From contig JADHVO010000005.1 in NCBI GenBank assembly GCA_016783965.1, positions 124,001 to 188,000 on the forward strand: 64,000 nt of DNA. The letters are read 5' to 3'. This document shows, in pieces, positions 11,339-17,040 of this stretch. A model generated the notes under the pieces. That model did no database searches. It worked only from the letters and a program-made list of their open reading frames with translations, and was not told the DNA's origin. The translations under genes were made by a program, and so were the position numbers. Positions within the stretch are counted from its first letter, which is position 1. Every line of letters starts with the position of its first letter. The DNA comes from Alphaproteobacteria bacterium (GTDB lineage: Bacteria; Pseudomonadota; Alphaproteobacteria; Micropepsales; Micropepsaceae).

Positions 11339-11452
11339 GCCAGCGCGAACGCTGTGAAATCCGCTGAGGTATCCATACCGGCGTCGCGGTTGGCGGCCCG
11401 CGAACCGCTCCCTACATTCACCGGACCGCTATCTCGCCAAAGGACAATCCCC

Positions 11453-12523
11453 ATGCCGTCACTGTTCGATCCCATCAGGGTAGGCCCGCTCACGCTGCCC
11501 AATCGCATCTGGATGGCGCCGCTCACGCGCACCCGCGCGGTGGAGGGCAGCCGGGTACCCGCGCCGCTCGCCATCGAGTACTACACACAGCGTGCCGGTG
11601 CCGGCCTGATCATGACGGAAGCCACGTCCGTCGATCCGATGGGCGTCGGTTATCCCAACACGCCCGGCATCTGGTCCGACGAGCAGACCGAGGGCTGGAA
11701 GCCGGTCGTCGACGCAGTGCACAGGAAGGGCGGTCACATCTTCCTCCAGCTCTGGCATGTCGGCCGCATCAGCGACCCAGTCTTCCTGAACGGCCGTCAG
11801 CCCGTCTCCGCCAGTGCCATAGCCGCCGGCGGCCACGTCTCGTTGCTCCGTCCACAGAAGAATTACGAGGCGCCGCGTGCCCTCGATACGGCCGAAATTC
11901 CCGCCGTTATCGCCGCCTACAGGAAGGGTGCAGAGAACGCGAAGAAGGCCGGCTTCGACGGGGTCGAGATCCACGGCGCCAACGGCTATCTCCTCGACCA
12001 GTTCCTGCAGGACAGCGTGAACCGGCGCACGGACGCTTATGGCGGCAGCCGCGAGAAGCGCGCGCGCCTGATGCTCGAGGTCGCCGATGCTTGCTGCGAA
12101 GTCTGGGGCGCCGATCGTGTTGCGATGCATCTCGCCCCGCGCGGTGATGCGCACACCATGGGCGACAGCGACCTCAAGGCGACCTTCACCTATGTCGCGA
12201 AGGAACTCGGCAAGCGCAAGCTCGCCTTCCTCTGCGCCCGCGAGCACCAGGCCGCCAGCAGCATTGGCCCGCAGCTCAAGGAAGCCTTCAGCGGCGTCTA
12301 TGTCGTGAACGAGAACTTCACCAGGGAGACCGGCCAGGCCGCGTTGGACGCCGGCACCGCCGACGCGGTCGCCTACGGCAAGCTCTACATCGCCAACCCC
12401 GACCTCGAAACGCGCTTCAGGCAGAACGCCCCGCTCAACGCGTGGGACGTAAAGACGTTCTACGCGCCCGGTCCCGGTGGCTACACCGATTACCCGTCGC
12501 TCGAAGACGCAGCGGTTGGTTGA
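11453..12523 (+). CDS. NADH:flavin oxidoreductase / Old Yellow Enzyme family alkene reductase
   Basis: 356 residues from the ATG at 11453 (AAGGA 9 bases upstream). Starts LFDPIRVGPLTLPNRIWMAPLTR, the FMN-binding opening of Old Yellow Enzymes. Later motifs are LWHVGR, GFDGVEIHGANGYLLDQFLQ and YGGSREKRARL. These FMN enzymes use NAD(P)H to reduce activated C=C bonds of enones, maleimides or nitro compounds, often in electrophile detoxification. An upstream in-frame ATG at 11354 is unlikely to be used. Ends just before a strong terminator. Confidence 0.92.
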   Translation: MPSLFDPIRVGPLTLPNRIWMAPLTRTRAVEGSRVPAPLAIEYYTQRAGAGLIMTEATSVDPMGVGYPNTPGIWSDEQTEGWKPVVDAVHRKGGHIFLQLWHVGRISDPVFLNGRQPVSASAIAAGGHVSLLRPQKNYEAPRALDTAEIPAVIAAYRKGAENAKKAGFDGVEIHGANGYLLDQFLQDSVNRRTDAYGGSREKRARLMLEVADACCEVWGADRVAMHLAPRGDAHTMGDSDLKATFTYVAKELGKRKLAFLCAREHQAASSIGPQLKEAFSGVYVVNENFTRETGQAALDAGTADAVAYGKLYIANPDLETRFRQNAPLNAWDVKTFYAPGPGGYTDYPSLEDAAVG

Positions 12524-12579: not shown

Positions 12580-14826
<2,247 letters not shown>

Positions 14827-14833
14827 TCATCAC

Positions 14834-14850
14834 ATTAGACAGGTTCTAAA
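14834..14850. promoter_or_regulatory. Iron-control-type box 2 at the katG -10
   Basis: ATTAGAC AGG TTCTAAA. The right half is a perfect TTCTAAA half-site and the left half matches 5 of 7 to TTTAGAA. Spacing of three matches the iron control element bound by Irr (TTTAGAA-N3-TTCTAAA). It overlaps the predicted katG -10, so binding would block transcription. Known consensus plus visible match; the regulator is inferred. Confidence 0.55.
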
Positions 14851-14871
14851 CTTGACCGGGGAGTCCGTCAA
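14843..14871 (-). promoter_or_regulatory. katG: katG promoter
   Basis: On the minus strand TTGACG (14866-14871) and TAGAAC (14843-14848) are 17 bases apart, a good sigma-70-type promoter. Transcription would start near 14836, giving a leader of about 95 bases before katG. Confidence 0.6.
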
Positions 14872-14876
14872 GTTAC

Positions 14877-14893
14877 TTGAGAACGATTCTAAA
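14877..14893. promoter_or_regulatory. Iron-control-type box 1 upstream of the katG -35
   Basis: TTGAGAA CGA TTCTAAA matches TTTAGAA-N3-TTCTAAA at 13 of 14 positions. It lies six bases upstream of the -35, and its centre is 43 bases (about four helical turns) from box 2, so two bound dimers would lie on the same face of the DNA. Confidence 0.65.
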
Positions 14894-15095
14894 CTAAGGG
14901 CTGCGGTCCGACTGGCTGGACCAAGGTTCAATCCCGGGGACGCCCAGTGTTCGCTACCGCTGCGATGGGAGTGCGAACCGATTACCGTCGTGGTTTGGCG
15001 CGCCGCACTCTCAGCATGACGGTTCAGCCAAGAGGCATCCTGATATGGCCGCCCGGCCGCCCTCGAAGAATGGCAGCACCACCAGACGAAAAGAA

Positions 15096-15125
15096 CCCAG
15101 GCGGCGCTTGGGCTTGCCGCCTGGG
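15096..15125 (+). promoter_or_regulatory. Stem-loop in the ilvD leader
   Basis: CCCAGGCGGC and GCCGCCTGGG form a perfect 10-bp stem around a 10-base loop about 200 bases upstream of ilvD. No T-run follows, so it is not a simple terminator. A role in ilvD control is only a guess. Confidence 0.35.
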
Positions 15126-15324
15126 TCCAGGCAGGCCCGGCTGGGTCTGGAGGGGGGAGGGACTTTCGCCGGGCTTTTGGTTGGAATGAATCTAAGGTCG
15201 CAGGGCCCGATTTCAAGTACCTTCGAATACTTCCAAAGTAGGCGGCGGAAATGTGGCCTTAAGCCCCCTCCCGCACCGCCCAAAAACAACTACGTTGCCG
15301 CTCCCGCACGTCGCAGAGAATTAA

Positions 15325-17040
15325 ATGAGCAAGATCGACAAATCCCGCCTGCCGTCCCGCCACGTCACCGAAGGTGCAGAGCGCGCGCCGCACCGCTCGT
15401 ACTATTACGCGATGGGTCTCACCGAGACGGAGATCCACCAGCCCTTTGTCGGCGTGGCGTCCTGCTGGAACGAGGCCGCGCCCTGCAATATCGCGCTGAT
15501 GCGTCAGGCCCAATCGGCGAAGAAGGGCGTCAAGGACTCCGGCGGCACGCCGCGCGAGTTCTGCACCATCACCGTGACCGACGGCATCGCCATGGGCCAC
15601 GAGGGCATGAAATCCTCGCTCGTCAGCCGCGAGGTTATCGCCGACAGCGTGGAGCTCACCATGCGCGGCCATTGCTACGATGCGCTGATCGGCATCGCCG
15701 GCTGCGACAAGTCCCTTCCCGGCATGATGATGTCGATGCTGCGCCTCAACGTGCCCAGCGTGTTCCTCTATGGCGGCTCGATCATGCCCGGTCACTTTCG
15801 CGGCAAGGACGTGACCGTGGTCGACCTGTTCGAAGGCGTCGGCATGCACAGCGCCGGCAAGATGAGCGATGGCGACCTGCACGAGCTCGAATGCGTCGCA
15901 TGCCCCGGCGCCGGCGCTTGCGGCGGCCAGTTTACCGCCAACACCATGGCCTGCGTCGCCGAAGCGATCGGCCTGGCGCTGCCATACTCCTCCGGGCCTC
16001 CGGCCGTGATCCTGGAACGCGACAACTTCGCGCTCAACGCAGGCAAGGCCGTGATGGACCTGCTCGCCAAGAACATCCGCCCGCGCGACATCGCCACGAA
16101 GAAGGCGTTCGAGAACGCCGCCCGCGTCGTCGCCGCCACGGGCGGCTCAACCAACGCCGCGCTCCATCTGCCCGCGATGGCGAACGAGGCCGGCATCAAG
16201 TTCGACCTGTTCGACGTGGCGGAGGTCTTCCGTTCGACCCCCTATCTCGCCTCGCTCAAGCCCGGCGGCAAGTACGTCGCCAAGGACATGTGGGAAGCGG
16301 GCGGCGTGCCGATGCTGATGCGCATTATGCTCGACGCCGGACTTCTGCACGGCGACTGCATGACCGTCACCGGCAAGACGGTCGCGGAGAACCTGAAGGA
16401 CGTGAAGTTCAACCCCGACCAGAAGGTGATGGTGGAGGTGAAGAACGCGCTCGCCCCCACGGGCGGCGTGGTCGGCCTGAAAGGCAACCTCGCGCCCGAA
16501 GGTGCCATCGTGAAGGTCGCGGGCCTCAAGCACACCAAACATCGCGGCCCCGCACGCGTGTTCGACCGCGAGGAAGACGCCTTCGCTGCCGTCGACCGGC
16601 ACGACTACAGGGAAGGCGACGTCATCGTCATCCGGTACGAGGGCCCCAAGGGTGGCCCGGGCATGCGCGAGATGCTGTCGACCACAGCTGCGATCTACGG
16701 GCAGGGCACAGAGAACATCGCCCTGATCACCGACGGCCGTTTCTCCGGCGCCACCCGTGGCCTGTGCGTCGGCCATGTCGGCCCCGAAGCCGCCGACGGG
16801 GGCCCGATCGGCCTCTTGAAAGACGGCGACATCATCGTGATCGACGCCGACGCCGGCACGATGAACGTCGAACTCTCCGACGCCGAACTGGGGGCGCGCG
16901 CCAAGGCCTGGAAGCCCAGGCCGCCGGCCTTCAAGACCGGCGTGCTCGCCCGCTACGCCAGGAACGTCGGCCCCGCGCGCTTCGGCGCCCTCACCACGCC
17001 GGGCGCGGACGAGGAAGTCCGTTGCTACGCCGACATCTGA
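15325..17040 (+). CDS. ilvD: Dihydroxy-acid dehydratase
   Basis: 571 residues. Iron-sulfur cysteines are in SCWNEAAPCN, AGCDKSLPGMMM and CVACPGAGACGGQF, as in the IlvD/Edd family; length and the GCDKSLPG form favour IlvD over 6-phosphogluconate dehydratase. It dehydrates 2,3-dihydroxy-3-methyl acids to 2-oxo acids in isoleucine and valine synthesis, in the cytoplasm. The cluster makes it sensitive to oxidants, which is interesting beside katG. A long leader precedes it and a repeat element follows it. Confidence 0.95.
   Translation: MSKIDKSRLPSRHVTEGAERAPHRSYYYAMGLTETEIHQPFVGVASCWNEAAPCNIALMRQAQSAKKGVKDSGGTPREFCTITVTDGIAMGHEGMKSSLVSREVIADSVELTMRGHCYDALIGIAGCDKSLPGMMMSMLRLNVPSVFLYGGSIMPGHFRGKDVTVVDLFEGVGMHSAGKMSDGDLHELECVACPGAGACGGQFTANTMACVAEAIGLALPYSSGPPAVILERDNFALNAGKAVMDLLAKNIRPRDIATKKAFENAARVVAATGGSTNAALHLPAMANEAGIKFDLFDVAEVFRSTPYLASLKPGGKYVAKDMWEAGGVPMLMRIMLDAGLLHGDCMTVTGKTVAENLKDVKFNPDQKVMVEVKNALAPTGGVVGLKGNLAPEGAIVKVAGLKHTKHRGPARVFDREEDAFAAVDRHDYREGDVIVIRYEGPKGGPGMREMLSTTAAIYGQGTENIALITDGRFSGATRGLCVGHVGPEAADGGPIGLLKDGDIIVIDADAGTMNVELSDAELGARAKAWKPRPPAFKTGVLARYARNVGPARFGALTTPGADEEVRCYADI

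Follow-up and report, generated by a model that had tools for sequence, protein, structure and literature searches.

In a soil-type bacterium, the main H2O2-destroying enzyme, the catalase-peroxidase KatG, appears to be switched by an iron- or haem-linked regulator that acts at two sites in the katG promoter. The sites are two palindromic boxes of the Irr type, identified in a stretch of 64,000 nucleotides, which we term the window, and followed through the rest of the 4.29 Mb genome and through related genomes. From sequence comparison we put at roughly three in four the probability that the two boxes form a conserved Irr operator pair that represses katG and is released when Irr is inactivated. 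The Irr-type box pair itself is real and conserved, and it would most likely act by letting Irr repress katG.

Coordinates of the boxes, promoter elements and genes are given in Table 1. When compared with the palindrome TTTAGAA-N3-TTCTAAA, box A reads TTGAGAACGATTCTAAA and box B reads ATTAGACAGGTTCTAAA. The initial annotation of this DNA had matched the first at 13 of 14 half-site bases and the second at 12 of 14, with a perfect right half in the latter, and our counts of one and two mismatches agree. A third site within 3 mismatches of the palindrome lies in the window at 15221 (3 mismatches). On the katG strand, box A is followed after 5 nt by TTGACG and, 17 nt further on, by TAGAAC, which falls within box B; the spacing of 43 bp between box centres, the overlap of box B with the -10 and the abutment of box A to the -35, all proposed earlier, are thus confirmed. 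This promoter is absent from the listing of our promoter scan (14700-15330) because the scan's rule calls for a T at the end of the -10, where katG has a C. katG and the divergently transcribed ilvD have a short intergenic region in common in several relatives. Within ilvD, ARAGORN called a tRNA-Ser (16893-16967, minus strand) that falls below the Rfam cut-off and is likely spurious.

Table 1. Features of the katG-ilvD region, in window coordinates.
Feature	Position	Strand	Remarks
Irr-type box A, katG promoter	14877..14893	-	5 nt upstream of -35; 1/14 mismatches; 22.8 bits; conserved geometry
Irr-type box B, katG promoter	14834..14850	-	overlaps -10; 2/14 mismatches; 21.2 bits; conserved geometry
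Proposed katG -35, TTGACG	14866..14871	-	read off the sequence; TTGA 4-5 nt past box A in 7/8 tandem loci
Proposed katG -10, TAGAAC	14843..14848	-	inside box B; 17 nt after -35; read off the sequence
katG, catalase-peroxidase, 720 aa	12580..14742	-	NCBIfam TIGR00198, 1168 bits (cut-off 770)
ilvD, dihydroxy-acid dehydratase	15325..17040	+	divergent neighbour; NCBIfam TIGR00110, 677 bits (cut-off 618)
Box A' of second pair (weak)	15221..15237	-	3 mismatches; 13.9 bits, rank 4 in window
Box B' of second pair (weak)	15180..15196	-	over -10 of candidate small RNA; 4 mismatches; 16.2 bits, rank 3 in window
Promoter-like TTGAAA-16-TAGATT between A' and B'	15189..15216	-	sole promoter-like site listed in 14700-15330; shuffles mean 0.2
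Candidate small RNA, 97 nt	15088..15184	-	hairpin with C-rich loop, second hairpin, U-rich end

Sites this close to the palindrome are rare in shuffled DNA. Within 3 mismatches, the real window has 3 sites where shuffled windows average 0.14, and none of 100 shuffles reached 3. We also scored the 64 kb with an independent matrix trained on 54 boxes (27 + 27) from the irr/rubrerythrin loci of relatives, a set that contains no katG site and nothing from this genome; the katG boxes ranked first and second. The best site in a shuffled window had a median score of 5-6 bits and reached at least 13.5 bits in 30 of 900 windows (4 of 20 in a first small trial), and no pair of sites of at least 6 bits lying 38-48 bp apart was found in either 400 or 900 shuffled windows. 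Across the whole genome, four places come within 2 mismatches, namely both katG boxes and the sites C13:23183 and C13:23728. The idea that the katG boxes are chance matches draws on a reversed control pattern, which finds 2 places within 2 mismatches and, within 3 mismatches, 24 places against 15 for the box pattern. Because the control finds similar numbers, the genome count alone is weak, and it is the locations of the matches, not their number, that are telling. The window shuffles, the independent matrix and the pair shuffles all stand against chance, and conservation of the boxes on katG in relatives refutes it; we regard its probability as negligible.

That conservation was one of two points on which the initial annotation had made its proposal depend, the other being an irr gene in the genome, and both are found. 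We searched 69 genus genomes, with this genome among them, and detected katG in 28. The search returned 30 loci, of which two fragments lacking the 5' end and one locus with only 87 bp upstream were set aside, leaving 27. The best box upstream of katG is within 2 mismatches in 19 of the 27 loci, within 1 in 13 and exact in 5, and shuffled upstream regions gave 0.0 at 2 mismatches and 0.175 at 3. No box within 2 mismatches was seen in the remaining 8. Among these, G022 has a 3-mismatch box, G081 has 3-mismatch boxes only, 273-331 bp upstream, and the katG loci of G060, G071, G073, G019 and G011 have none within 4 mismatches. Locus L071 begins inside a broken katG, and its 400 bp are not true upstream sequence; a scan of the whole locus found no box within 4 mismatches.

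The geometry of the promoter is conserved along with the boxes. Eight katG loci, counting this one, show a box pair at a spacing of 42, 43 or 45 bp, in which the poorer match departs from the palindrome at up to 4 bases. A TTGA starts 4-5 nt past box A in all of these save G006, where one TTGA follows the box immediately and another stands 5 nt after it; the TTGA precedes box B by 21 nt in four tandem loci and by 23 nt in the other four. Of 12 loci with a single box, six have TTGA 3-5 nt after it, which places the box at position A. Three others are at or near position B, with TTGA 21 nt before the box in one and 26-27 nt before it in two, and the last three (L051, L062, L075) fit neither position. 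In a tree of 52 KatG proteins (25 genus rows and 27 of 80 named loci), in which 14 of 49 inner branches are open, enzymes of the genus fall into several clades and boxed promoters occur in several of those clades, suggesting that the arrangement was probably recruited or kept on katG more than once. Among named loci, taken as the best 80 of at least 589 relatives by match to this KatG, a scan of 400 bp gives a box within 2 mismatches in 7. These belong to three Reyranella, an Enhydrobacter-labelled MAG, two unnamed proteobacterial MAGs and one Rhizobium; a fourth Reyranella and the Bradyrhizobium-labelled loci have no box within 3 mismatches.

The two remaining close matches in the genome flank a Fur-family gene of 149 aa on C13, one just upstream and one just downstream. 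This gene is divergent to fabA and is followed by a rubrerythrin gene, with the second box between them. Its product is IrrA by profile (NF045678, 203.4 bits, cut-off 150; NF045677, 192.1 bits, cut-off 170), while the best PerR model gives it 64.5 bits, far below the cut-off of 250. Two Fur-family genes were found in the genome, of which this one is irr; the other (L001) is nearest to Fur models but below their cut-offs. irr is not linked to katG here. In two relatives there is linkage: irr immediately precedes katG in G056, and a paralogue of irr immediately follows katG in G060, where katG also has a divergent OxyR-like gene. An Irr-like match at E<=1e-24 is present in 65 of the 69 genus genomes, this one included; G003, G011 and G018 have a weak Fur-family match alone (E about 1e-8) and G062 has none. 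We examined 30 irr loci, including that of this genome, and could parse 28. In every parsed locus irr is preceded by a box, at 2 mismatches in 26 loci and at 3 in the other 2, and followed by one within 2 mismatches; regular expressions found a rubrerythrin-like motif next to irr in all 28 and a divergent FabA-like motif in 27. The His-Gln-His of the HxH haem site is present in all 27 Irr proteins parsed from the 30 loci, this genome's included, and the N-terminal Cys-Pro haem regulatory motif, which characterises Bradyrhizobium-type Irr but not every Irr, is absent from all 27.

A genome-wide motif scan had been suggested in the initial annotation as a way to see whether other boxes precede haem and iron genes. 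It placed the other two close matches before irr and between irr and rubrerythrin; no match within 2 mismatches precedes a haem or iron-transport gene, a threshold at which more divergent sites would be missed. The genome has eleven 3-mismatch sites. One of these (L010:1501-1517; G000 C3:51222) lies just upstream of hemA, the 5-aminolevulinate synthase gene, and was considered as a classical Irr target and rejected: it scores 7.1 bits, and in the other 27 parsed hemA loci no site comes within 3 mismatches (30 loci examined, 28 parsed including this genome). Of the other ten, 8 fall inside heuristic ORF picks, among them the site at 15221, and the 2 outside (L009, L013) each lie past the 3' end of the neighbouring readable gene.

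Boxes at other genes of relatives were surveyed as a sample, comprising 18 of many listed box places and two katG-irr loci. AhpC-AhpD-like gene pairs are preceded by boxes within 2 mismatches in G002, G007, G016, G042 and G043 (loci L198, L199, L204, L205, L206), and G007 has two boxes 50 bp apart. The pair of G002 was identified by profile, AhpD at 229 bits being above its cut-off of 192 and AhpC at 137 bits below its cut-off of 272; the other four were identified by eye. For the AhpC protein of G002, whose gene has a box, this genome gives one match, a distant peroxiredoxin (37%) in whose locus the strongest box-like site reaches 5.0 bits. Central-metabolism genes of relatives can likewise stand behind a box within 2 mismatches: lpd (dihydrolipoyl dehydrogenase) does so in two relatives (L202, L211), and leuD (L214), a pyruvate dehydrogenase gene (L200) and sucC (L201) in one relative each; these could be real targets or chance matches. 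Taken as a set, the predicted targets (katG, rubrerythrin and irr, with ahpCD-like genes in relatives) look like peroxide defence no less than haem or iron control, which makes a peroxide role likely.

The boxes and OxyR-like genes tend to avoid one another at katG. Among 107 katG loci (27 from the genus and 80 named), an OxyR-like gene lies in the flanking stretch covered for 1 of 26 boxed loci (25 without) and for 42 of 81 unboxed loci (39 without). Fisher tests give p = 5e-6 for the pooled loci, 0.054 for the named loci alone and 0.080 for the genus alone, and the relation is an association, not proof, as flank lengths differ and the loci are related. In G060 an OxyR-like LysR gene (236 bits against the NCBI OxyR model, cut-off 329) is divergent to an unboxed katG. 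A search of 23 genomes with its product at E<=1e-45 found a match in G060 only; this genome has no match at that threshold, nor any at E<=1e-20 in its katG locus. G003, which lies outside those 23, has a partial OxyR-like gene (118 bits) in an unboxed katG locus. Absence of the box is not always explained by OxyR, since among the five katG loci boxless to 4 mismatches the G060 stretch alone has an OxyR-like gene. Our best reading of these patterns is that Irr holds at katG in this lineage the place that OxyR holds in rhizobia.

From the promoter layout we infer the following scheme. The regulator would be this genome's Irr (G000:C13), the gene identified above as one of its two Fur-family genes. 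Irr bound at box B would cover the -10 and block katG transcription, and a second dimer would strengthen the repression from box A, which lies some four turns of the helix away and ends 5 nt short of the -35. Inactivation of Irr, whether through loading with haem or iron, through oxidation driven by peroxide or through both together, would then release katG, rubrerythrin and irr. Irr is described as binding its box without haem (PMC7762939, in excerpt).

With the same operators and the same Irr, the protein might act as a PerR-type peroxide sensor through metal-catalysed oxidation and not mainly as a sensor of haem or iron, a possibility that we place a little short of even odds. The peroxide-related targets, AhpC-AhpD-like genes of relatives among them, and the lack of an OxyR-like match at E<=1e-45 in this genome are consistent with it. 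So is an alignment to Bacillus subtilis PerR, in which this Irr keeps the positions of two Asp and three His that we take to be the PerR metal ligands, together with the Asn of the DNA-reading helix. Yet such residues are common to ordinary Irr proteins and do not discriminate, the Asp and Asn in question being conserved in Irr proteins in general (PMC8638967, in excerpt), and the His-Gln-His seen in all 27 parsed proteins is the form found in the haem-binding Irr of Brucella (PMC3413700, in excerpt). The PerR models, moreover, score this protein far below their cut-offs.

Two other explanations alter the action of the boxes or the identity of the protein. Irr might serve as a two-state switch, activating from box A (at about -50) and repressing from box B (at about -7), with occupancy setting the output; both positions derive from the proposed promoter and not from a mapped start site. 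Box A does keep a near-fixed distance from the -35 even where box B is missing, as in the six single-box loci that retain 3-5 nt to TTGA, and plain repression would not require this. Irr is also described as an activator or a repressor depending on box position (PMC7762939, in excerpt). Common descent of the promoters could equally fix the distance of box A, and we consider such a switch unlikely. Much less probable still is that the boxes belong to the other, Fur-like protein (L001). Both Fur-family proteins are present in the genome, and Fur of Magnetospirillum gryphiswaldense binds its own katG promoter by ChIP (PMC3251581, in excerpt). Against this, the box accompanies irr in all 28 parsed loci of the genus and matches the Irr consensus as given in the initial annotation, and G003 and G018, which have no Irr-level match, have no box within 2 mismatches anywhere. 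In G011 no irr was found, yet a good box (25 bits) is present; that genome is 75% complete. Repression by Irr at both boxes stays our preferred reading of the katG promoter.

A second, weaker pair of boxes (A' and B', Table 1), which the initial annotation does not mention, lies in the same intergenic region, 41 bp apart and in the same layout as at katG, with a promoter-like sequence between them that leads into a candidate small RNA. No pair of sites of at least 13.5 bits at 38-48 bp was found in 400 and 900 shuffled windows, nor in 5000 shuffles of the intergenic region, 13 of which had one such site. The fold of the candidate RNA has a z score of -4.6, with none of 200 shuffles as good. 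It matches no Rfam family above cut-off, and a terminator scan of 14700-15330 listed no terminator-like site (shuffles mean 0.9). A box pair with a similar RNA is found upstream of ilvD in G022, G071, G072 and G073, with fold z scores of -6.4, -7.8, -6.9 and -3.6, respectively. In none of these is katG adjacent, and G072 has no katG match. The outer boxes of the counterparts are weak (5.9-11.4 bits), and in G022, whose counterpart was found by position and not by the RNA model, the boxes are 50 bp apart. The 17 bases of box B' are identical upstream of ilvD in G071 and G073. More widely, the region upstream of ilvD has a site above 5 bits in 12 of 30 loci, katG being a close divergent neighbour in six of those.

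In G071, G072 and G073 the -35/-10 pair reads away from ilvD into two hairpins and a U-rich end, and the upstream neighbour is a flavin-oxidoreductase-like gene (identified by eye), which in the window lies beyond katG. The order in the window is the flavin-oxidoreductase-like gene (11354-12523, plus strand), then katG (12580-14742, minus strand), then the block of small RNA and ilvD. It is as if katG had been inserted between the flavin-oxidoreductase-like gene and the RNA. An alignment of four RNA sequences shows no covariation (0 double changes), and 93% of its cells are paired against 28-48% when the sequences are slid. Strong matches to the RNA model among the 69 genus genomes are its four training members, the others scoring 20-26 bits with no box upstream; among 289 genomes of the class the match is strong in this genome alone, with four others at 28-30 bits. 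One weak match, L282 (G010 C67:129811-129905), shows two C-rich hairpins by eye; it has no box directly upstream, and a listed box place lies about 0.6 kb away.

The second pair might instead simply duplicate the katG promoter, control ilvD, or be a relic of a katG promoter since lost. These explanations fit less well than a pair that drives the candidate small RNA, because the pair in G071, G072 and G073 lacks an adjacent katG and its promoter reads away from ilvD. The candidate RNA may be previously undescribed. More tentatively, and with rather more doubt than confidence, we propose that Irr, through like tandem operators, controls both katG and a small RNA whose C-rich loops could pair with Shine-Dalgarno sequences, and acts as a master peroxide and iron switch.

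In the open-access literature, with subscription journals mostly outside it, we recognised no report of direct Irr control of katG and saw no Irr-controlled small RNA; the candidate described here may be the first. In a genome that gave no OxyR match, Irr and its box appear to govern katG from a rigid two-operator promoter present in several KatG lineages. If true, this would offer a natural test of how an iron or haem sensor turns into a peroxide regulator.

Irr is known chiefly from rhizobia, where it serves as an iron regulator that reads haem. The Irr/ICE regulons of Rhizobiales and Rhodobacter resemble the present system in having an Irr-family protein, the same palindrome, boxes at or near the core promoter and a rubrerythrin-like target. 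Irr binds blr7895 and bfr in Bradyrhizobium japonicum, and mbfA and ccpA are likewise targets in Rhodobacter sphaeroides (PMC3413700, in excerpt). According to the same excerpt, R. sphaeroides Irr does not bind the catalase gene katE, and it still binds haem while having no haem regulatory motif. The present system differs from these regulons in that katG carries two boxes at near-fixed positions and that the good boxes are not at haem or iron-transport genes.

PerR of the Bacillus type is a Fur-family repressor of catalase, peroxidases and itself. The likeness lies in a Fur-family repressor set over peroxide enzymes and its own gene, whereas here the profile models assign the protein to IrrA and the box has the form of the Irr palindrome. 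FurA controls katG in actinobacteria. Fur likewise controls katG in Magnetospirillum gryphiswaldense (PMC3251581, in excerpt), as two further Magnetospirillum papers repeat (PMC12912731 and PMC5459824, in excerpt). Both cases are like ours in Fur-family control of katG, and irr is linked to katG in two relatives; in contrast, a different Fur subfamily would act here, and irr is unlinked to katG in this genome. RyhB and its analogues are Fur-controlled, iron-sparing small RNAs. The candidate RNA is like them in standing behind Fur-family boxes and differs in its C-rich loops, in having no Rfam match and in its predicted regulator, Irr. If the proposal of joint control by Irr is true, the RNA would be an Irr-governed counterpart of the RyhB-type RNAs in an alphaproteobacterium that gave no OxyR match.
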